Origin: Acidobacteriaceae bacterium
Lineage (GTDB): Bacteria > Acidobacteriota > Terriglobia > Terriglobales > Acidobacteriaceae
NCBI GenBank assembly: GCA_027306695.1
Contig: DAHUZH010000012.1
Span: 1-45,663, forward strand
DNA length: 45,663 nucleotides
Reading direction: 5' to 3'
The position numbers were made by a program, and so were the translations under genes. Under the pieces are notes generated by a model. The model was not told where the DNA came from. It was given only the letters and a program-made list of their open reading frames with translations, and did not search any database. Positions 1 to 9,069 of this stretch are shown here, in pieces; positions within the stretch are counted from its first letter, which is position 1, and each line of letters opens with the position of its first letter.

Positions 1-1475
1 GCAAATTCATCCACGCGCGCAATTCGGCACGCTTCCAATACCTCCGCTTCGCTGGCCATGGGCCGCGAAAATTGCACGTTCTCACGAATGCTTCCATCGA
101 ATAAAAACGACTCCTGCAACACCACGCCAAGTTGCGTGCGATAGTCGGCGAGCCGCACCGTCGCAAGATCGATGCCATCGATCAGCACCCGGCCGCCGTC
201 CGGTTTGTGAAACGCGCACAGCAGGCTGATGATCGTCGACTTGCCCGACCCCGACGGGCCGACCAGCGCCGTCACCGTTCCCTGCGCGGCTTCGAGCGTG
301 ATGCCGTGGAGCACTGGCTTGCTCGGCTCATACGCAAACACGACGTCCTCAAACTTTACCTCGCCGCGTATTGCACCCAGCGCGACCGTGCGCCGCGGGT
401 CTTTTTCTTCGTCGGTCTCCGCCAGGATTTCAATGGTGCGGTCCATGCCAGCGACGGCCTCCGTCAATTGTGTTCCAATGGCTACGACCTGCGCGACGGG
501 TGCGATGAGGTACGCGAGAAACAAGATGTACTCAACATAATCTCCGGTCGTCATATGGCCGCCCACGACCTGGCGCGCCCCGAAAAACATGACCAGCGCA
601 CCAACCAGCCCCAGCAGGACAGTCGAGGCCAGACTCATCACCGACTGCGCCGTCAGCGTGCGGATCACGTTTTCCAACAGGCGCTGTACCCCACCGGCAA
701 ACACCTGCGCTTCGCGTTCTTCCGCGTGATATCCCTTCACCACGCGCACGCCGCCCAGCGACTCCGTCAGCCTGCCGGTCACATCGGCGTTGATGCGGGC
801 GCGTTCGCGAAAGATGGGCCGGATGGTTTTGAATGCGACTTGAAGAATGGCGGTAAAGACCGCGACGATGGCGAAAGCGAGCAGCGTCATCACCGGGCTG
901 ATGCGCAGCAAAACGACAAACGCGATTGCGGCCGTCAACAGGCCGCCGATGAAATTCACCAGTCCCGTGCCGATCAGGTTGCGCACGCCTTCGACATCGG
1001 TCATGATGCGCGCAACCAGCGTGCCGGAGCGGTTCGCGTCATAGAAGGCCACGGGCAGGCGGCCTACATGTTGCTGCACCTTGACGCGCAGTTCCGCAAT
1101 CAAGCGTTGGGCGGCCTTGGAAAGCAGTTGCGTCAGCGCGTAAGAAGTCGCGCCTTGGATCGCCGTTGCAATCAGCACTGTGCCCACGATCCACGGCAGC
1201 AGATTCATGCGGTGATTTTTCATCACGCCGTCAATCAGAAATTTGCTGGAGTACGGCAGCACCAGGCCGGAGACGCGGTTGACGACCATCAACACCATGC
1301 CGAGAACCAGAATCCAGCGGCGCTGTTTGACCAGCGCCCAGACCTCCGGCAATACCTTGCGTATCTCCGGTTTCTTTTTTCCTTGTGGTTTGTCGAGAGA
1401 CGCATGGCCGCCTGCGGACTCCGACTTCCGCCCGCTGCGCGTTCCTACCCCCACCCATGCCGGTCGTGTGCTCAT
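1..1475 (-). CDS. ABC exporter, fused permease/ATPase (MsbA/MdlB-like), 3' end cut by window edge
   Basis: About 491 codons are visible; the C-terminus runs off the left edge. Translation from ATG 1475 gives a basic cytoplasmic head of about 45 residues, then a transmembrane domain of the exporter type (hydrophobic stretches from about residue 50 to 330). It is followed by a nucleotide-binding domain with Walker [10 protein letters not shown] (codons at 260-234) and a Q-loop region reading [15 protein letters not shown]. The signature, Walker B and H-loop lie outside the window. One-chain permease-ATPases of this kind work as homo- or heterodimers in the inner membrane and export lipids, drugs or peptides; the substrate cannot be told here. 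The start sits 9 bp after the preceding gene's stop with AGGGAAAA just upstream, so it is the distal gene of the same operon. The long plus-strand ORF opposite is a shadow. Confidence 0.93.
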
Positions 1476-1484
1476 GAATTTTCC

Positions 1485-1862
1485 CTAAGGCCGTCCGCGC
1501 CGCGCTGCGATAAAGGAGCGAACGCACAGCAGCACGAAGATCAGGCAGATGACAGCCATGGCCAGCTCTTCCTGCATGGCGACTGGCCGTAGCACGGTCT
1601 GGCCGTGCATCTGCTTGATGAGATCGCCCGCCGCGCGCCAGCCGGGGAAAACAAATCCAATCAGTCCCACTGTGACGGCGATGTGCATAAAGAGCATGCG
1701 GCGCTTGCTGTTTTCCGTATTGGCAAACAGGCCGAGGATGCCGAGAAGAACACCGAAGTATGCCGGAATCAGCGCGGTTGGCGCATGGCTGCCGGTCGCG
1801 ACAAAAACGGCGACCCCCAAAATAATAAGAATGAGCGCTAAAACAAGCGTAAGTTTTGCCAT
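1485..1862 (-). CDS. small conserved-type integral membrane protein, unknown function (125 aa)
   Basis: A 125-residue, almost entirely hydrophobic protein. Membrane segments are visible at about residues 4-22, 32-47, 57-75 and 98-117, with short charged loops (NTENSKRR near 50, a Lys/Gln/Met stretch near 82-90) and a basic C-terminus RRGRP. No known domain is recognised. The start ATG follows a GAGG motif 9 bases upstream. It is spaced 35 bp from the gluconokinase gene and 9 bp from the ABC exporter, so co-transcription is very likely. A role as a helper of the exporter is possible but is only inferred from position. Confidence 0.75.
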   Translation of the reverse strand: MAKLTLVLALILIILGVAVFVATGSHAPTALIPAYFGVLLGILGLFANTENSKRRMLFMHIAVTVGLIGFVFPGWRAAGDLIKQMHGQTVLRPVAMQEELAMAVICLIFVLLCVRSFIAARRGRP

Positions 1863-1897
1863 CCGAACAAGCCTCCTCTAATTCTGTTTCGTTCCAC

Positions 1898-2404
1898 TCA
1901 CTCCAGCATAGCCTTCCGCGCCAGCGCACTCAGGATTTGCTGCACAATCGCCGGAACGCTTTGCGCAATGGATACCTGGATCGCATCCTGCGGCGGCTCC
2001 AACGCGGCAAGCTGGCTGGGAAGCAGCGATGGCGGCATGTAATGATCGTGCCGCGCTTCCAGCCGCTCGTGAATCACCGATTCCGGCCCGGTTAGATAGA
2101 CGAATCGAATCGACTCAGGCGGGGTTCCTTCCGTCAGCGTTGCCCGGTAAGACTTCTTCAACGCCGAACAGGCCAGGACGCCATTTGCGCCTTCGCGCAG
2201 CCAACTGGCGATCTGCTTATGCAGGCTGCGCAGCCACGGTGCGCGATCTTCATCCGTCAACGGAATGCCGGCCTGCATCTTCGCTCGGTTCGCTTCCGAA
2301 TGGAAATCGTCGGCATCGGCAAACGGCCAGCCTGTCTCCTGCGCCAGCGCGTGGCCCACAGTTGTCTTGCCGGTCCCAGTTACGCCCATCAGCACGACCA
2401 CCAT
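1898..2404 (-). CDS. gntK: gluconokinase, GntK/IdnK family (168 aa)
   Basis: Phosphorylates D-gluconate to 6-phosphogluconate with ATP, feeding the pentose phosphate or Entner-Doudoroff pathway; cytoplasmic. Walker A is GVTGTGKT at residues 7-14. It is followed by the family-typical DADDFHSEANRAKMQAG (gluconate/lid region), PLTDEDRAPWL and the LACSALKKSYR stretch, then a C-terminal FVYLTGP and RHDHYMP lid motif. Length matches the usual 165-180 residues. The start is 3 bp after the SCO1-like gene's stop (TAA GCC ATG), with an AGGA about 11 bases upstream, so translation is probably coupled. A sugar-acid kinase inside an otherwise metal- and membrane-related run is unexpected, but the assignment itself is secure. 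Confidence 0.93.
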   Translation of the reverse strand: MVVVLMGVTGTGKTTVGHALAQETGWPFADADDFHSEANRAKMQAGIPLTDEDRAPWLRSLHKQIASWLREGANGVLACSALKKSYRATLTEGTPPESIRFVYLTGPESVIHERLEARHDHYMPPSLLPSQLAALEPPQDAIQVSIAQSVPAIVQQILSALARKAMLE

Positions 2405-2407
2405 GGC

Positions 2408-3355
2408 TTAATTTTTCCTCACGTTTCTGCGCGGCTCCGATGTCAGCACCTGTCGAACATTCTGAAATATCCGCTGCGGCGTCCATGTGTTGGTCGGATA
2501 CCAGTAGCGGATCCTTCCATCCGGCCCGATCACCGCCGTCGAAACGGAGTGCTGCAAAATCTTTCCGTCCGCAGACGTCACGCCAACATCGAACCAATTC
2601 AATATAGATGGCAGCTCGGCCATAGAAGGTGCGGCAAAATCCCAATGCGCGAAATTTTCTTTGGTATAACGGCCCGTATACGCGGCCCCATAGCTGCGCA
2701 GCACCGCCGGCGTGTCGTACTTTGGATCGAAGCTCACGCTTAGTAGATGCGTTTTGGCGTAAAGTTCCGGATCGGCGGCCAGCATCTTGTCCACCTTGGA
2801 AAAATTTCGGCTCATCAAAGGACAGAACTGTGAAGACGCGCACCGCGTATAGATGAAGGTAAGCAGCAGCACTTTGCCGCGAAATTGGCGCAGATCGATT
2901 TCGCGCCCGCTCTGGTTGCGCAGCTTGAAGTCCGGGACGGTATCTCCCGGTTGCGGCACATGATATAGCCTCGTCGGCTTCACGTTCAACATCGCCTGAT
3001 GAACGATGTCGATGTCGCTCAGGACCGCTCCCTGCGCGCCGATATGCAATTGTGCCGTGATCGTGTCGCCAGGATGCAACTCGGTCGCAATCGATGGATT
3101 TTGCAACGTGTAGGCCATCGTCATCGCTTCCATGAAACCGGGGATCTCTTCCGTATCGAGAGAAATCACGCCATCCTTGGCATAGACGGAAATCACCTTA
3201 CCGCGCACCGCATATTGTTTTTCGGACGATGCGGCGGCATTGCTGCCGCCCTTCTCTTTCGGGTTGGAATGACATCCGCCGATGCCGAGCGCAGCTAGGC
3301 CCAGGGCCAGTGCGCATGCGGCCATGCTGTATTTTTTTCGGGGAATTCTGTTCAT
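2408..3355 (-). CDS. lipoprotein with CusF-like copper domain fused to SCO1/SenC thioredoxin-fold domain (315 aa)
   Basis: The signal peptide ends in a lipobox (LGIGGC, Cys28), so the protein should be membrane-anchored outside the cytoplasm. Residues about 48-115 look like the CusF/YP-type copper-binding fold, with the typical stretch IPGFMEAMTMAY (71-82). Residues about 135-300 form a SCO1/SenC domain: PDFKLRNQSG, the metal-binding Cys172 and Cys178, and His269 in LQHSVSTAVIGPDGR. SCO proteins deliver copper to cytochrome c oxidase CuA or act as thiol reductants. The two cysteines are spaced CX5C (CASSQFC) instead of the textbook CX3C. The start ATG overlaps the TonB receptor stop as ATGA, meaning tight coupling. 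Known for the family: copper chaperone. Inferred: it receives copper imported by, or protects against copper near, the receptor encoded just upstream. Confidence 0.9.
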   Translation of the reverse strand: MNRIPRKKYSMAACALALGLAALGIGGCHSNPKEKGGSNAAASSEKQYAVRGKVISVYAKDGVISLDTEEIPGFMEAMTMAYTLQNPSIATELHPGDTITAQLHIGAQGAVLSDIDIVHQAMLNVKPTRLYHVPQPGDTVPDFKLRNQSGREIDLRQFRGKVLLLTFIYTRCASSQFCPLMSRNFSKVDKMLAADPELYAKTHLLSVSFDPKYDTPAVLRSYGAAYTGRYTKENFAHWDFAAPSMAELPSILNWFDVGVTSADGKILQHSVSTAVIGPDGRIRYWYPTNTWTPQRIFQNVRQVLTSEPRRNVRKN

Positions 3356-5667
3356 CTCAATTCATCTCTCTGCTTGTAAAACAGCCTGTCGTAGTGGAAC
3401 CGGTAATGGACCTCACCATAAAATTCGCGCGGCGCGTTGTAATGGAACCCTCCAAAGGTCAGGCTATTATCCAGCAGCACGCGATGATTGGTCACATTCG
3501 TCATGTTCACGGAAACTGTCGTATTTTTCCGAAATGTTTTTCCCAGCGCCAAGCTCAGGTTCGTATCGTGCGGCAGATATTCCCCTGGATACTCCGCGTT
3601 GGGATCTCCATTGTAGAAGCCCGATCCGTAGTACAAATTCACCGAGCCATACGCATGTCCGGGCAAGGTGGCGTCCATCCCTGCATTCAGTGTATTTCTC
3701 TGGTCGTGGTCCAGCGGAATGTAGTTGAAACCGGAATCGCATTCCGGTGCAGTGATGGGAACGCAGACCAGCCCGCCTGTAATCGCGCCGCGCTGTTGGG
3801 CCAGTTGGTTGGAATAGGCAAGATGCGCCTGCCCAAAATGCCACAGTGTCGGCGAATGAATGGTCAGCTCCCATCCCTGAATGAGCGCCCCATCGATGGA
3901 GATTGGGAAGAATATGTTCGACTCCCCGACATTTGAGTGGTCGAGAAAATCGTTCGCCCTCGTCTCGAAGTTGTCCGCGTCCAGCAGCCATCCGCGAAAC
4001 GGAATCTGCACGCCGAACTGGTGTTCTTCATCCCGTTCTCCATGCAATGGCAGAAAACTTGTGTTGGTGCTGTTCGCGTAACCAAGCAACGGGCCAGATG
4101 CAGTCAGCAACGGCGGCGGCTGATAGTAGCGTCCATAGAACGCGCGAAACACCCAGTCGAGCTTCGGTATCTGTACGGCAATTCCAAAACGAGGATCATT
4201 TTCAATTTCTGTAATGTTGCCAGTAAACTGCGATGCTCGAAGACCGGCAATGACGGTCAGCCATCGCGTCATTTTATAGTTGTCGGAAATATATTCTTCC
4301 GTCAGCCCCGCCGCTGCGCCGTCGTGGATAAGAAAGTTCTGGTAACTGCCATTGTTAAACACCGAACCGAAAACATAGCTGTCATGCTGACCGAACGAAT
4401 AGAACCCCGTCTGCACGGTATGATTCGCAATCTGCGTAGTTAGCGACGCTTGCACGCCCGCGTAGTTGGAAGCACGGTCAGAGGTGGCCGCTACAGGGTA
4501 ATCGTTCGCGTTGGGATTGTAGTTTGCGCTGTTGTAGTGGTAGTAGGGAGAAACTTGAAGCACCGTCGATGCGTTGTACGTATGCACCCAGGAAAACGCA
4601 GAGAAGCCATCGACCTCATGCTGCCCATCCCGCAGGCCGCTGGAATTATATTGCCGGTTCTCATAGTCGTTGACATTGGGATCGTAGGGAATCTGAAAGT
4701 AATCCGTGCGCAACTGCGACACCAGACGGACCTGGTCGCGCGGCGTGCGGTTATACACAAGCGATGAAAATCCTCCGTAGCCATTGGCCGCATCATGGTA
4801 CGGCTTCGCAATCGGCGGCATCAGCCCATAGTTCGTGCGGTTCCCATTCAAGCTCGCATAGTAGGCAAACTTCTCCGTATGACTGCCGAAGTTAAGCTGA
4901 TCGTTGGTCTGGTAATAGTTCCCCGCGCTCAGAACCAGCTCCGCCTTATTGTCGCGTTCAAAACCGGTGCGCGGAGACACGTCGAACACGCCGTAGGTGC
5001 GGTCGCCAACATCCGCGTTATAGCTGCCGCGCTGCACTTCCAGAGTTTCGATGTCCTTCGGATCGATCTGCGGTCCCAGATTGCTGGCGATGTTCGTATT
5101 CGGAATTTCAACGCCATCGATCTCCCAGCTCACCTGATGCCCGCCGCGCACATGCAGCATGTCATGCACCATGTAGGCCCCGGGAACATAGTCCGTAATC
5201 ATTGCCATGCTGTCGTTGCGGTCCGCGCCTGGCGTTCGCGCGATATCGAGTCGATCGACCAGTGTGGTCGGCGTGACGGAATTTGCATTGACCACATCGG
5301 CCTGCGAAGTGACCTGGACCGATTGCTGCACACTGCCCACCTGCAACTGAAAATGCAGGATGGGAGAGTTGTCGGAAAACACCGTGATCGTCTGCTGCAG
5401 CACATCGAAGCCCGCACTTGTAATTGTGACTTTGTAATCTCCGAGCGGCAGCGTTGGAAATGAAAAGTAACCGTCCCGGTTGGTGTGCGTCGTCTGCGAA
5501 AAATGCGAATATCCAGCATGGACTATGACCTGCGCGCCTTGAATGGGCCGATGTTGCGGGTCATGCACAATGCCTTGCAGCTCCCCAAACACAGTGGCGC
5601 GGGCATTTCGACCGTAAAACGGAAATAAAAAAAACGTCAGAATAGCGAACCGCAAATACGTACGCAT
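3352..5667 (-). CDS. TonB-dependent outer-membrane receptor with N-terminal carboxypeptidase-regulatory-like domain (771 aa)
   Basis: The reading frame is open further upstream, but ATG 5667 is chosen: it has AAGGAAA just in front and begins a clear signal peptide (MRTYLRFAILTFFLF..., cleavage near ARA). Residues about 27-110 are a CarboxypepD_reg-like beta-sandwich (GELQGIVHDP...GAQVIVHAG...NRDGYFSFPTLPLGDYKV). Then comes a plug domain (MITDYVPGAYMVHDMLHVRGG, IDGVEIPNTN, IETLEVQRGS) and a long beta-barrel ending in the aromatic YGEVHYRFHY region. It imports a ligand across the outer membrane using TonB energy. The ligand is not readable from sequence; the overlapping SCO1/CusF gene and the upstream Cys/His-rich protein suggest copper or a copper complex (inference). 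It overlaps the next gene by 4 bp. Confidence 0.92.
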   Translation of the reverse strand: MRTYLRFAILTFFLFPFYGRNARATVFGELQGIVHDPQHRPIQGAQVIVHAGYSHFSQTTHTNRDGYFSFPTLPLGDYKVTITSAGFDVLQQTITVFSDNSPILHFQLQVGSVQQSVQVTSQADVVNANSVTPTTLVDRLDIARTPGADRNDSMAMITDYVPGAYMVHDMLHVRGGHQVSWEIDGVEIPNTNIASNLGPQIDPKDIETLEVQRGSYNADVGDRTYGVFDVSPRTGFERDNKAELVLSAGNYYQTNDQLNFGSHTEKFAYYASLNGNRTNYGLMPPIAKPYHDAANGYGGFSSLVYNRTPRDQVRLVSQLRTDYFQIPYDPNVNDYENRQYNSSGLRDGQHEVDGFSAFSWVHTYNASTVLQVSPYYHYNSANYNPNANDYPVAATSDRASNYAGVQASLTTQIANHTVQTGFYSFGQHDSYVFGSVFNNGSYQNFLIHDGAAAGLTEEYISDNYKMTRWLTVIAGLRASQFTGNITEIENDPRFGIAVQIPKLDWVFRAFYGRYYQPPPLLTASGPLLGYANSTNTSFLPLHGERDEEHQFGVQIPFRGWLLDADNFETRANDFLDHSNVGESNIFFPISIDGALIQGWELTIHSPTLWHFGQAHLAYSNQLAQQRGAITGGLVCVPITAPECDSGFNYIPLDHDQRNTLNAGMDATLPGHAYGSVNLYYGSGFYNGDPNAEYPGEYLPHDTNLSLALGKTFRKNTTVSVNMTNVTNHRVLLDNSLTFGGFHYNAPREFYGEVHYRFHYDRLFYKQRDELR

Positions 5668-5789
5668 CCATTTCCTTTTTTTGCGCTTGTGAGATTTCAA
5701 GCTGACAATAGGCAGCGTCTTTCCCCGTGGGCCCGCGCATACGTTGCAACGACGCAAGCCTGCGCGAGCGGGAAGATTCGGAGAATTGT

Positions 5790-6179
5790 TTAGAGGGTTA
5801 CAGCCGGAGGCGCGCGTGTGGACCGGGACCGCGAGCGGAGCGCGAAGAAAATCACCGAAGAAGTGGGCGTTACACGCCCGAAGGTAACTGGCTGCGAAAT
5901 CGATCTGTACCACGGTTCCGCAGCAGCCACAACTGCGGGAACCATGGCTACCTTCCACCATGGACACGGCGCTGGCGTTATGAAATGCGTGTTGGAGCCA
6001 GCCAGATCGGAGGCCAGCGTCGACTGCACCATCATGCAGTGATGCGCGCCATTTCTACGACAGCATGCGGGCACGCTTGCTGTTGCCTGCGCGCTGCCAA
6101 AAAGCGGCTGCAATGGCAGTAAAGCCGTCAACAACAGCAACAGGGATGCGGCCCAACGTCTCACAGGCCAGCATACCAT
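5790..6179 (-). CDS. small secreted Cys/His-rich protein with CC...HHC motif, unknown function (about 129 aa)
   Basis: From ATG 6179 the product has an Arg-rich start, a strong Leu-rich signal peptide (WAASLLLLLTALLPLQPLF, likely cleavage after SAQA) and then VPACCRRNGAHHCMM, a compact cluster of three Cys and two His that looks metal-binding. A second CPWW element lies about 30 residues later, and the C-terminus is basic and Ser/Arg-rich. No known domain is recognised. Other in-frame starts (6206, 6314) exist without clear ribosome sites; the longer ones would overlap the divergent addB-like gene. It lies 122 bp upstream of the TonB receptor in the same direction and is probably the first gene of that operon. 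Metal binding outside the inner membrane, most likely copper given the neighbours, is an inference. Confidence 0.62.
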   Translation of the reverse strand: MVCWPVRRWAASLLLLLTALLPLQPLFGSAQATASVPACCRRNGAHHCMMVQSTLASDLAGSNTHFITPAPCPWWKVAMVPAVVAAAEPWYRSISQPVTFGRVTPTSSVIFFALRSRSRSTRAPPAVTL

Positions 6180-6234
6180 CCAGGATCGCAGGGCCTGGGC
6201 ACGCATCGCCGCGCATATGGCGTATAACGTTGAA

Positions 6235-9069
6235 ATGTCCCTTTCGTCCATTTGGACAGAGCAAGAATTGCTGCAAGCCTTGGAGCGAAACATTGCCGGG
6301 GCCACTCTCGTCACCAGCTCCGTCCGTGCCGCGCGCGCACTGCGACAGCGCTATAACCAGTGGCGGCAAACCAGCGGCAATACCGGCTGGATGACTCCTA
6401 AAATTCTGGCCTGGGAGCCATGGCTTGGAACATTGTGGGATGGCCTGGTCCTCACTGGCGCCGAGACGCGCGTGCTGCTGACGGAAGCGCAGGAATTGCA
6501 GCTATGGCAAAAAGTTCTGGCACAGGATGAGGCGGCAAAACAAACTCAGTCCGTCGCCTCTTTGGCGGAACAGGCGCAGCGGTCGTGGAAAGAAATGCAC
6601 CGCTACAAGGTTCCATTGCGGAGCGTGCGTGGCGACAGCAATATGGACACGCAGGCCTTTTACATCTGGGCCACCGAAATTGAAAAACTCTGCCGCGCAT
6701 CTTCGTTTTTATCGCCGTCGCTGCTGGAAGCGGCCATCGCGCAGTCGATTCCCTCGAATACAACTTCCTTGCCGGAAGAAATTTTTCTGGTTGGGTTTGA
6801 CCGTGTCCTTCCATCGCAAACTTTATTGATCGACGCGCTGGATGCGGCCGGTTGCTCGGTTCATTTTGTCGAACTTCAACACGCAGACACCGCTGCGTCC
6901 GAACATGCTATTGTCTATGCCGCCACATTGGAAGAGGAGATTGCCTCTGCCGCCTGGTGGGTCCGCAGCGAGCTGCTGAAAAATCCCATGCAGAAAATTG
7001 GCGTCATAGTGCCGGCACTCGCTGCCATGCGGGACCAGATCGACGCGACCTTTCGACGCATCCTCGCGCCCACTTCGCTCGACGTTCGCGCACCGCGTAC
7101 CACTCTGCCGTACGAATTTTCTCTCGGCACGCCCACGCATCTTCTAACGCCGATCCGCACGGCACTGGCATGTCTGCGATGGTTGCAGGGACCGATACCG
7201 GTGGAAGAAATCTCCTGGCTGGTGGTCCACGGAAGTTTCAGTTCTGGGTCGCAGGACGCTCGCGCAAGATTAGATCGAAAATTCCGCGACCGCGACTTTC
7301 AACTGGGTGGTCCGGTAGCGCTCGCTGCGTTCCGGCAATGGTTCCTGCAAGCTGGAAATCGTGAAGAATTTGCACCCTTGCGTCGCACTATCGAGCGGCT
7401 GTTCGCTATCGTCCAAAGCCGCGCATTGGAGCGGCCACGCTCCTTCGCTGAATGGCGCGAGACGATCGAGGATCTGCTCCTCACCGCCGATTGGCATTTG
7501 CTGCAAGCGGTTGACAGTGCGGACTATCAACTACTGCAACGCTGGAGCACGCTGTTGAACGAGCTTTCGTCGCTGAATCTTGTCGCTGGGCCAGTACAAC
7601 TTTCGGCGGTGCTTGAAAAACTTCAGCACATGTCTGCGAACACTTTGTTTGCACTGGAAAGCAGAAATGCGCCCGTGCAGATTCTCGGCGTCACTGAATC
7701 GGCGGGGCTCTTGTTCGACTCTGTGTGGTGGTTGAACGCGCAGACCAGCGCGTGGCCGCCCCATGGCCGGGCACAGCCGTTCCTCCCGTGGAGCTTGCAG
7801 CGCGAAGCCCACATGCCCTACGCCGACCATACTGCCGATTACGCCTTCGCGCACCGCGTGACCAAACGAATTGTTGAATCCGGCAGAAAGGTCGTCTTCA
7901 GTTTCGCCTTGCAGGAAAGCGATCCGGCCACCGCCAGCACACACATCCCCAACCGCGAGGTGTTGCTGTCTCCGTTCGTGCGCGAAATTCTACCGGATGT
8001 TCCGTTGCAAACTGTAGAAGAATTTCTGCCGGAGCAGCCGCGCATGTGGCCCGCAGAATCCATTGTGCTTGAAAATGTCTACGAGGAGCCTGCGGTTGCG
8101 TTCGATGCGCGCGCGGTGCGTGGTGGCGTGGAATTTCTACGGCTGCAAGCCGCGTGTCCGTTTCGCGCCTTTGCGGAGTTGCGGCTGGGCACGCGCCCCC
8201 TCGCGGAACCTGGCACAGGACTTTCCGCATCGGCACAAGGCAGCATCCTGCATCAGGTATTGCAGAAATTCTGGAATGAGATGGCGTCGCAAAAAAACCT
8301 GCTGGCCAGCTCGACGGAGCAACACAGCCAGATGCTGCGCGGACACATTCGCGTTGCGCTGGCAGAGTTCGTCGAAAACGCGCACGAGTCATGGCAACAA
8401 ACGCTGCTGGAGATTGAAGCGGAGCGCATGGAAGCGCGTCTGCTGGCATGGCTCGAAATAGAAAAACAACGCCCGGAATTTACGATAGTGGAAACGGAAA
8501 ACAAGTTGGAGCACGCCCAACTCGCAGGTATCGAGTTGAGCTGTCGCATCGATCGCATCGACGCAGTGAAGGAAGGAATTGCGTTGATCGATTACAAGAC
8601 CGGCCCGGTGAAACGGAAAGACTGCGAAGGGGAACGGCCCGACCAGCCGCAGATGCCGACCTACGCCGTGCTGCGCAATCAGGCGTCCTCAGCCGAGCGG
8701 CCGCTGGCGGGTGTCGCCTTCGCGGGGCTGCATGCGCGCAAGGTGGAATTCACTGTTGTCAGTTCCCTTCCATCCATCTTTGAAACCGCCCCGGAAAAAA
8801 CGCGCGTCAAAACGAAGTTTGATCCAGCCGCACTCTCTCCTGAAGAGATGCAGGCACAGTTGGAGACATGGAGCAAAACTTTGACCGCACTGGCGGAAGA
8901 TTTTCAGGCTGGCGTCGCAGTCGTCGATCCGAAAAAAATGGGCGAGACCTGCCGCCACTGCCAGCAAGCCTTGCTGTGCCGCATTGGCGAGATGCAGGAG
9001 GTTTTTGAAAATGCATTGCAGGAAGAACAGGATACTGCGGAGCGGCAGCCGCCCGGAAATTACGAATAA
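6235..9069 (+). CDS. AddB-like PD-(D/E)XK nuclease, 'probable DNA repair protein' type (944 aa)
   Basis: Partner of the AddA-like helicase that follows after 30 bp. The N-terminus (TLVTSSVRAARALRQRYNQW, then PKILAWEPWL) resembles the proteobacterial 'probable DNA repair protein' branch of inactivated-helicase AddB relatives; no Walker A is present. The C-terminal part is a RecB-type nuclease: GSILHQVLQKFW, IDRIDAVKEG, ALIDYKTG and QMPTYA give the His, Asp, Asp-X-Lys and Gln/Tyr motifs. Cysteines in QAACPFRAFAELRLG plus CRHCQQALLC are spaced like the AddB iron-sulfur staple. The complex resects double-strand breaks for RecA. The start could be ATG 6217 or 6235; neither has a good ribosome site. 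It is divergent from the Cys/His-rich gene, leaving only about 55 bp between starts. Confidence 0.88.
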   Translation: MSLSSIWTEQELLQALERNIAGATLVTSSVRAARALRQRYNQWRQTSGNTGWMTPKILAWEPWLGTLWDGLVLTGAETRVLLTEAQELQLWQKVLAQDEAAKQTQSVASLAEQAQRSWKEMHRYKVPLRSVRGDSNMDTQAFYIWATEIEKLCRASSFLSPSLLEAAIAQSIPSNTTSLPEEIFLVGFDRVLPSQTLLIDALDAAGCSVHFVELQHADTAASEHAIVYAATLEEEIASAAWWVRSELLKNPMQKIGVIVPALAAMRDQIDATFRRILAPTSLDVRAPRTTLPYEFSLGTPTHLLTPIRTALACLRWLQGPIPVEEISWLVVHGSFSSGSQDARARLDRKFRDRDFQLGGPVALAAFRQWFLQAGNREEFAPLRRTIERLFAIVQSRALERPRSFAEWRETIEDLLLTADWHLLQAVDSADYQLLQRWSTLLNELSSLNLVAGPVQLSAVLEKLQHMSANTLFALESRNAPVQILGVTESAGLLFDSVWWLNAQTSAWPPHGRAQPFLPWSLQREAHMPYADHTADYAFAHRVTKRIVESGRKVVFSFALQESDPATASTHIPNREVLLSPFVREILPDVPLQTVEEFLPEQPRMWPAESIVLENVYEEPAVAFDARAVRGGVEFLRLQAACPFRAFAELRLGTRPLAEPGTGLSASAQGSILHQVLQKFWNEMASQKNLLASSTEQHSQMLRGHIRVALAEFVENAHESWQQTLLEIEAERMEARLLAWLEIEKQRPEFTIVETENKLEHAQLAGIELSCRIDRIDAVKEGIALIDYKTGPVKRKDCEGERPDQPQMPTYAVLRNQASSAERPLAGVAFAGLHARKVEFTVVSSLPSIFETAPEKTRVKTKFDPAALSPEEMQAQLETWSKTLTALAEDFQAGVAVVDPKKMGETCRHCQQALLCRIGEMQEVFENALQEEQDTAERQPPGNYE

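Follow-up and report, generated by a model that had tools for sequence, protein, structure and literature searches.

Gene layout and RNA features of the locus

The window analyzed here, the whole stretch of 45,663 nucleotides, carries on its minus strand a tandem of a small Cys/His-rich open reading frame (ORF), a TonB-dependent receptor (TBDR) gene, and a gene for a CusF-SCO1/SenC protein, confirming the arrangement described in an earlier note on this DNA. The receptor gene (3352..5667) encodes 771 amino acids with a CarboxypepD_reg domain, a plug, and a barrel, and the third gene (2408..3355, 315 amino acids) matches CusF_Ec at 9.5e-11 and SCO1-SenC at 1e-15 in a domain search. The SCO start and the TBDR stop have positions 3355-3352 in common, so the ATGA overlap previously pointed out also holds. 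A gluconokinase gene of the GntK/IdnK type (1898..2404, minus strand; TIGR01313, 1e-48) prolongs the same-strand run, and a copper role is not evident for it.

The small ORF, whose product contains ...VPACCRRNGAHHCMM..., is real, but its start is better placed at GTG 6164 than at the ATG 6179 chosen earlier, because homologs begin with [MVL][RK][RK] and ATG 6179 lies at the edge of a -10-like TATGCT. Read from this GTG, it occupies 5790..6164 on the minus strand (stop codon 5790-5792) and encodes 124 amino acids; we refer to it as the leader, a putative nascent-peptide copper sensor. By eye, its N terminus is signal-peptide-like, with an Arg-rich start and a Leu-rich stretch. Residues 34-43 form a putative metal site, CCRRNGAHHC (6036..6065, minus strand), and residues 67-70 read CPWW (5955..5966, minus strand) where the known leader CruR has CXXC. 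The C terminus is RAPPAVTL-stop, a feature absent from the earlier note; the RAPP (5805..5816, minus strand; residues 117-120) is a predicted arrest motif followed by 4 further residues, and its Arg follows the Cys of CPWW by 50 residues.

A predicted -10 element, TATGCT, occupies 6170..6175 on the minus strand, and its position relative to the leader start places the predicted transcription start at or next to the start codon, as in a leaderless mRNA. A plain sigma-70 scan and a terminator scan of positions 5500-6400 returned no sigma-70 match and no intrinsic terminator, and no Rfam family was found in positions 1-9000. The leader-receptor gap of 122 nt (5668..5789, minus strand) is free of an intrinsic terminator, an Rfam match, or a significant RNA fold. 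Over the leader end lies a C-rich, G-poor stretch (5773..5876, minus strand; 78-nt windows with C 31-32 and G 15-20) that is at most suggestive of a Rho utilization region. Taken as a whole, the CP..RxPP segment of the window has no excess of C (+0.006), and the C>G signal is modest, being positive in the CP..RxPP segment of 96% of 113 leaders and also in 83% of 106 receptor stretches.

No sequence match to the receptor was found among solved structures, and its profile returned only two weak matches there (a tail fiber and NOMO2), both in the N-terminal domain only. The receptor model (mean pLDDT 68.6; residues 163-178 below 50) resembles siderophore, cobalamin, and PQQ transporters alike; it thus supports a TBDR and says nothing on the substrate. 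Plug histidines 168, 172, and 177 are near-invariant and fall within the poorly predicted part of the model. Given these matches, copper as the substrate is suggested by context, namely the CusF-SCO1 neighbor, the receptor itself, and the relation to CruR/DUF2946 described below, and it is this context that supports the earlier proposal of copper and outer-membrane import.

Conservation and genomic context in Acidobacteriota

Three elements are shared by acidobacterial relatives of the leader: CCRRxGxHHC, a CP farther along, and R[AGS]PP near the C-terminal end. Among ORFs selected by the N-terminal motif from the best 80 of 208 loci, 82/82 complete ORFs have both an R[AGS]PP no more than 12 residues from the stop and, 49-54 residues ahead of it, a Cys, against a background of 5/2177 ORFs for such an ending and upstream Cys; the 82 come from loci that also passed a tblastn step and are partly of the same species. 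Because complete leaders served as the seeds of profile A1, its matches favor conserved C termini, which is why the 82-ORF test picked ORFs by their N-terminal motif.

We assembled a family set of 127 leader sequences less than 80% identical, leaving out of all family counts G441:C31, a weak phylum match (E 2.8e-4) without RxPP. In window numbering, C35, H41, C43, C67, R117, P119, and P120 are invariant and C34, R36, G39, H42, and P68 at least 90% conserved, while mean column identity outside the motifs is 22%. With the Cys looked for 44-56 residues before the RxPP Arg (unrestricted frequencies were also computed), it lies 49-56 residues before it in 127/127 and exactly 52 in 79/127; over the spacer between CP and RxPP, mean identity in those 79 leaders is 17%. 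The CC-to-CP distance is more variable (32.5 +/- 3.5 in the 127 sequences). RxPP stands 1-11 residues from the stop across the family, and RGPP outnumbers RAPP by 104 to 19 of 127. In the redundant set, where alone L087, a duplicate of L032, was kept, 161/162 leader ORFs have R[AGS]PP (129 RGPP, 28 RAPP, and 4 RSPP), and the exception runs off a contig end.

The first RxPP proline is encoded by CCU in 90/127 leaders, compared with 13% of prolines in the receptors. This bias is absent from the canonical acidobacterial DUF2946 leaders (1/7) and weak in divergent same-family acidobacterial leaders (2/6). Differences by codon position, counted over the final 24 codons in ten close relatives with the window leader among them, show only a moderate third-position excess (458, 369, 652). 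Across the 104 of the 127 leaders with a placeable start, TAnnnT starting at -12 is found in 27, versus 0-3 per position between -50 and -21, and an SD-like motif precedes 12.

The ORF is more than a chance occurrence: a leader match is present in 17/61 genomes examined, own genome included. In 17 of 19 regions around other matches, a TBDR gene directly follows a leader ORF; the two remaining matches (L018 and L019) were rejected as spurious, with stops and without a leader or adjacent receptor. By BLAST to nine reference proteins (seven Pfam-typed, plus the domain-typed receptor and SCO of the window), the gene following 141 leaders with distinct ends is a TBDR in 135 cases, PepSY_TM in 3 (one checked by Pfam, two by similarity), and neither in 2 (L178 and L195), with 1 contig end; the corresponding figures for the redundant 161 leaders are 155, 3, 2, and 1. 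Two leaders stand in tandem at 14 distinct loci. The gene order suggested for checking in the earlier note divides into a constant part, leader before TBDR in 17/17 loci, and an inconstant one, an adjacent SCO gene in 8/17, with one more partial SCO match (109 amino acids, E 9e-18) and one locus cut by a contig end; the SCO neighbor was accordingly rejected as a defining part. A lack of conservation of the Cys/His protein at homologous loci, named in the earlier note as a refuting result, was checked by regular expression and by eye: the leader is present at 19/20 same-family (f1) receptor loci and 1/1 in another family but at 0/9 loci of the sister family f2, where matches L242 and L249 were judged not leader-like and receptor G043, which had no locus, was left out of the count.

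Relation to CruR

CruR (BP2923 of Bordetella pertussis) is described as a copper-responsive arrest-peptide upstream ORF of the DUF2946 family (PF11162), with a CXXC at 90-93, a RAPP at 139-142, and conserved spacing; its regulation is reported to require both motifs and to involve Rho (PMC9426467). CruR is further reported to arrest in vitro in a RAPP-dependent manner with the two prolines in the P and A sites, and RAPP/RGPP small ORFs to be enriched before TonB and copper genes (PMC12992588). PF11162 matches 14/127 members of our family set at E <= 1e-3 (best 4.4e-7), and three leader loci (G236, G280, and G406) score above the Pfam cut-off for DUF2946. The window leader has no PF11162 match at E <= 1, so the earlier remark that no family was recognized holds for the window protein but not for some of its relatives, and its homology to CruR becomes detectable via intermediate family members. 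A candidate for a second DUF2946 in its own genome, with E 0.45 at best, was rejected.

Both CruR and the window leader are short leaders with a C-terminal RAPP and a Cys motif about 50 residues before it, and both stand, with a long gap, at the head of a TBDR operon, which for CruR includes PepSY_TM. The acidobacterial leaders differ from CruR in carrying CCRRxGxHHC, in keeping CXXC at the CP place in only 17/127 (the others have mostly CPxx, as in the CPWW of the window), in having RGPP more commonly than RAPP, in preferring CCU at the first RxPP proline, in forming tandem pairs at some loci, and in being predicted leaderless, whereas cruR transcription is reported to start 45 bp before its start codon (PMC9426467). 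The Cys-to-RxPP spacing, usually 52 in the family and 50 in the window, is 47-48 in the canonical acidobacterial DUF2946 leaders (n = 7) and 49 in CruR by the residue numbers in PMC9426467. The receptor in turn recalls the copper TBDT CrtA (BfrG), which also lies behind a CruR-type leader. CrtA orthologs are reported mostly from beta- and gamma-Proteobacteria (PMC12914433), and by description the window receptor differs in its N-terminal carboxypeptidase-regulatory domain and in finding no sequence match among solved TBDTs. On these sequence comparisons, the best reading is that the window leader functions in the manner of CruR and belongs to a lineage at the border of DUF2946.

Alternative readings and a predicted translational switch

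Several properties bear on how the small ORF should be read: its terminal RxPP, the near-fixed CP-to-RxPP distance over an unconserved spacer, the CCU bias, a Cys about 52 residues ahead of RxPP with the CC/HHC motif still farther out, its position heading TBDR (rarely PepSY_TM) genes, and the relation of some members to DUF2946/CruR. The first three fit a regulatory nascent peptide and speak against the earlier view of a working exported copper-binding component, a mature Cys/His protein carrying copper in the periplasm or at the receptor. That view can draw on the signal-peptide-like N terminus, the conserved CC/HHC, and the copper-type neighbor, but it is very unlikely given that the protein is so little conserved beyond its motifs and yet nearly fixed in length to RxPP, that this RxPP is a documented arrest motif next to the stop, and that a mature protein would offer no reason to favor one synonymous codon at the first proline. 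Most likely, the small Cys/His protein does not carry copper and is instead a sensor that is read during its synthesis. ApdA, ApdP, and SecM, with which the leader shares a C-terminal arrest motif (RAPP or RAGP), control protein-localization genes and are not known to have a metal motif. SecM and Apd peptides also carry export signals, and this would agree with a SecM/VemP/Apd-type secretion monitor whose arrest reports export activity and not metal, as would the reported ties of RAPP arrest peptides to protein-localization genes (PMC10951233, PMC7897499). Such a monitor is nevertheless highly improbable here, where the downstream genes are receptors and PepSY_TM and not sec/yidC, and it leaves the Cys/His motifs unexplained.

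Metal sensing can itself be read in other ways. CutF of Rhodobacter capsulatus, like the leader as proposed here, is an exported nascent copper sensor acting in cis and is described with a signal peptide, a Cys-containing metal motif, and a proline-rich end; its own features are CXXXC, a stem-loop over the downstream SD, and activation by copper (PMC9973294). By analogy, copper would delay leader export, open a stem-loop over the downstream ribosome-binding site, and turn the operon on, and the receptor start is indeed partly paired in some minimum-energy folds. However, in nine junctions that include the receptor start (L028 and eight from the genus), no significant or common fold and no common hairpin was seen, and their structure did not exceed that of shuffles (z -1.2 to +1.4); another junction set, mostly short of the receptor start, gave z -1.6 to +1.4. 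The median leader-receptor gap is 109 nt (108 loci, starts chosen by a rough score), while stem-loop unfolding is expected to be limited to short gaps (PMC9973294). CXXXC is absent from the window leader, which has CCRRNGAHHC and CPWW instead, and copper induction would fit an importer poorly, making a CutF-type leader quite unlikely. An arrest-peptide leader for another metal or redox state (zinc, nickel/cobalt, or disulfide) is unlikely as well: Cys/His sites bind several metals, and His-only CutF-like clusters are reported before HupE/UreJ family genes, but most Cys-containing CutF-like clusters are reported upstream of copper genes (PMC9973294), and both the CusF-SCO neighbor and the DUF2946 relation point to copper.

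We therefore regard the small ORF as probably a divergent leader of the CruR type, an arrest peptide that responds to copper and controls the receptor-SCO operon. Under copper scarcity, the ribosome would stall with the first and second RxPP prolines in its P and A sites, respectively, cover the leader end, and keep Rho off, so that transcription would continue into the receptor and SCO genes. When copper is present, the Cys/His residues, which at this point would have reached or passed the tunnel mouth, would bind it, and the resulting local folding would pull on the chain and end the arrest; with the ribosome gone, the message would be terminated before the receptor. The finished leader would be expected to be exported and then degraded. 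A broader proposal, which we put forward tentatively, is that Acidobacteriota harbor a lineage of leaderless, copper-sensing arrest peptides whose sensing site has moved from CXXC to a composite CC/HHC...CP outside the exit tunnel, whose arrest depends in addition on the kind of tRNA-Pro in the P site (CCU), and some of whose receptors lie behind two leaders, forming a two-step copper gate on one mRNA.

An apparent copper-binding protein is thereby recast as a predicted translational switch, and a CruR-related lineage of Acidobacteriota with a changed sensor is described. The near-fixed spacing over a free spacer amounts to a natural experiment on the distance from the peptidyl-transferase center that a metal site needs for arrest to be released, and the P-site codon bias and tandem leaders are specific features that are directly testable in vitro.

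The leader ORF and its operon

A copper acquisition cluster comprising an exported Cys/His protein, a TonB receptor, and a CusF-SCO1 protein had been proposed in an earlier note, and the gene arrangement is confirmed: a short ORF (5790-6164), a TonB-dependent receptor gene (3352-5667), and a CusF-SCO1 gene (2408-3355) lie in tandem, in this transcription order, on the minus strand, with ATGA shared by the end of the receptor gene and the start of the SCO gene. A gluconokinase gene (1898-2404) comes fourth, with more minus-strand ORFs beyond it, and a DNA-repair gene pair beginning at 6217 diverges from the operon. The short ORF, here called the leader, contains the previously described ACCRRNGAHHCMM motif. 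Its C terminus, overlooked in that note, reads ...RSRSTRAPPAVTL-stop and carries a terminal R[AGS]PP motif (RxPP) at 5805-5816.

Aligned homologs share a signal-peptide-like start, followed by CCRRxGxHHC (CC/HHC), a Cys-Pro (CP), and R[AG]PP at the C-terminal end. Among 127 leaders less than 80% identical, C35, H41, C43, C67, R117, P119, and P120 (window leader numbering) are invariant and M1, P32, C34, R36, G39, H42, and P68 are at least 90% conserved, while mean column identity is only 22%. The terminal motif is RGPP in 104, RAPP in 19, and RSPP in 4. We also scanned genome contigs with CCR[RAK]xG[AK]H[HR]C as the sole pattern, followed by tblastn, keeping the best 80 of 208 relatives. In each of the 82 complete plus-strand ORFs that carry this N-terminal motif in the best 80 of 208, R[AGS]PP falls no more than 12 residues short of the stop, with a Cys 49-54 residues before it; one additional motif-bearing ORF, outside the 82, runs past its contig end. 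That ending occurs in 5 of 2,177 background ORFs, and an R[AGS]PP ending occurs in 16 of 6,432 other six-frame ORFs and in none of 175 receptor, PepSY, or SCO ORFs. When the last 40 leader residues were shuffled, R[AGS]PP landed among the final 20 in 0.6% of shuffles.

The SCO domain retains CxxxxxC (CASSQFC) and the later His, a motif two residues longer than that of the aligned Bacillus Sco1. The same spacing is present in five of eight relatives (CPSAKYC, CSSAKYC, CASSQFC, CPSPKYC, and CPLSDYC) and was not found by the sequence pattern in the other three. In the receptor plug, His 168, 172, and 177 (HDMLHVRGGH) are near-invariant among 88 receptors and possibly form a metal site.

Spacing, codon use, and start of the leader

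The CP Cys lies 49-56 residues before the RxPP Arg in all 127 leaders, the Cys having been sought only between 44 and 56, and the commonest spacings are 52 (79 leaders), 53 (25), and 50 (13). When the search is left unrestricted, cysteines are most frequent at offsets 49-53, and those of the CC/HHC part are spread over 71-89. The CC-to-CP distance is looser (23-53; SD of 3.5 versus 1.0 for CP to Arg). Mean pairwise identity of the spacer is 17% in the 79 leaders with spacing 52. A nascent-chain sensor would require just this combination of near-constant length and freely varying sequence, because length sets the position of the site when the ribosome stops.

The first proline of RxPP is encoded by CCU in 90 of the 127 leaders, in an analysis that includes the window motif at 5805-5816, although Fisher values for this bias overstate independence because the leaders share kinship. 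CCU encodes 17% of other leader prolines, 13% of receptor prolines, 21% of first prolines of PP in receptors, 25% of second prolines of RxPP, and 19 of 71 in [AG]PP of non-leader proteins. The first proline sits in the P site during CruR arrest (PMC12992588), and the CCU excess suggests selection on the P-site tRNA. CCU is found there in one of seven canonical acidobacterial DUF2946 leaders and two of six divergent same-family leaders, and the bias is therefore confined to this leader lineage at most.

Start codons could be placed in 104 leaders (ATG in 55, GTG in 26, and TTG in 23). A TAnnnT hexamer starts at -12 in 27 of them, compared with 1-7 per position from -20 to -13 and 0-3 per position from -50 to -21, and an SD-like motif precedes 12 of the 104. 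This is the picture expected of an mRNA that would begin at or near the start codon. The window hexamer, TATGCT at 6170-6175, thus favors GTG at 6164 over ATG at 6179 as the leader start.

Distribution and relation to DUF2946

Leader matches occur in 17 of 61 relatives, counting the window's own genome. In a set of 17 leader loci, an SCO gene lies downstream in 8, and a ninth has a partial SCO match. Across 396 genomes of the phylum, 41 have hits to the leader profile, 40 of them within the same family and one elsewhere in the class. Downstream of 161 RxPP leaders are 155 receptors of several classes, three PepSY_TM genes, two instances of neither, and one contig end; for the 141 leaders with distinct ends, the counts are 135, three, two, and one. 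Viewed from the receptor side, an RxPP Cys/His ORF lies upstream in 19 of 20 same-family loci, in the single locus of another family, and in none of nine loci of a sister family. Several of these upstream ORFs are too divergent for the leader profile. The sister-family loci (L234 and L242-L249) have receptors 44-54% identical without such a leader. Far more divergent Cys-rich leaders, missed by the profile and ending in R[AG]PP, are found at L230, L231, L236, L237, and L241.

Two leaders in series precede one receptor at 14 distinct loci (16 rows, two duplicates): L092, L093, L097, L101, L102, L106, L109, L151, L158, L161, L169, L201, L209, and L211. Each is complete, with its own CC/HxC, CP, and RGPP, and the gap, measured at the 8 of 14 loci with an assignable second start, is 87-243 nt. 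For 26 of the 28 tandem members, the closest sequence within this set is a leader other than the tandem partner, indicating that most pairs are not recent duplications. Tandem leaders may possibly act as a two-step gate. The receptor frame at L102 is just 455 amino acids.

PF11162 (DUF2946) matches occur in 16 of the 396 genomes, nine above the cut-off. Among the loci matched, the leader profile also found G236:C2, G280:C1, and G406:C3 above the cut-off and G368:C1 and G296:C1 below it. PF11162 matched 14 of 127 leaders at E <= 1e-3 and 8 of 18 profile seeds at E <= 1; the window leader had no match in these searches. CruR, the copper-responsive arrest peptide of Bordetella, is a DUF2946 protein encoded by a uORF of a TBDT operon, and both its CXXC and RAPP are required for copper-dependent Rho termination (PMC9426467). 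In contrast to CruR, the window leader has neither CXXC nor a Pfam match and falls formally outside DUF2946. Its lineage nonetheless touches DUF2946 via intermediate sequences. Arrest at the CruR RAPP has been demonstrated in vitro, and RAPP/RGPP small ORFs are reported ahead of TonB-related genes across Gram-negative bacteria at large (PMC12992588), a survey in which these leaders were therefore probably counted in bulk. The consulted parts of PMC12992588 give no description of this leader family, and the words tandem, leaderless, CCU/CCT, and proline codon are absent from its main text. Our searches of an open-licence library yielded no title or abstract start describing the family. The comparisons made here establish the leader's anatomy, spacing, synteny, and family relation.

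Proposed control by copper

We infer arrest, a role for copper and Rho, and the direction of control as follows. At low copper, the ribosome would stall at RAPP and cover the leader end, keeping Rho off and allowing the receptor and SCO protein to be produced. The ribosome exit tunnel is 30-40 residues long, and the Cys/His sites lie 50 and 74-83 residues from the RAPP arginine. At high copper, metal binding at these sites, which lie at or outside the tunnel mouth, would free the stalled ribosome. A C-rich stretch at 5773-5876 (C of 31-32 versus G of 15-20 in 78-nt windows) fits a candidate Rho site; the whole CP-to-RxPP segment of the window has no C excess, and receptor sequences show the same C-over-G skew. 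Alternatively, control could resemble that of CutF, the nascent copper sensor of Rhodobacter capsulatus, with a stem-loop at the receptor start, but nine junctions across this start are no more structured than shuffled sequences (z of -1.2 to +1.4), and such a stem-loop is therefore not supported, although one may still form. Returning to release of a stalled ribosome, there is a good probability that the leader is a divergent CruR-type peptide and works like CruR.
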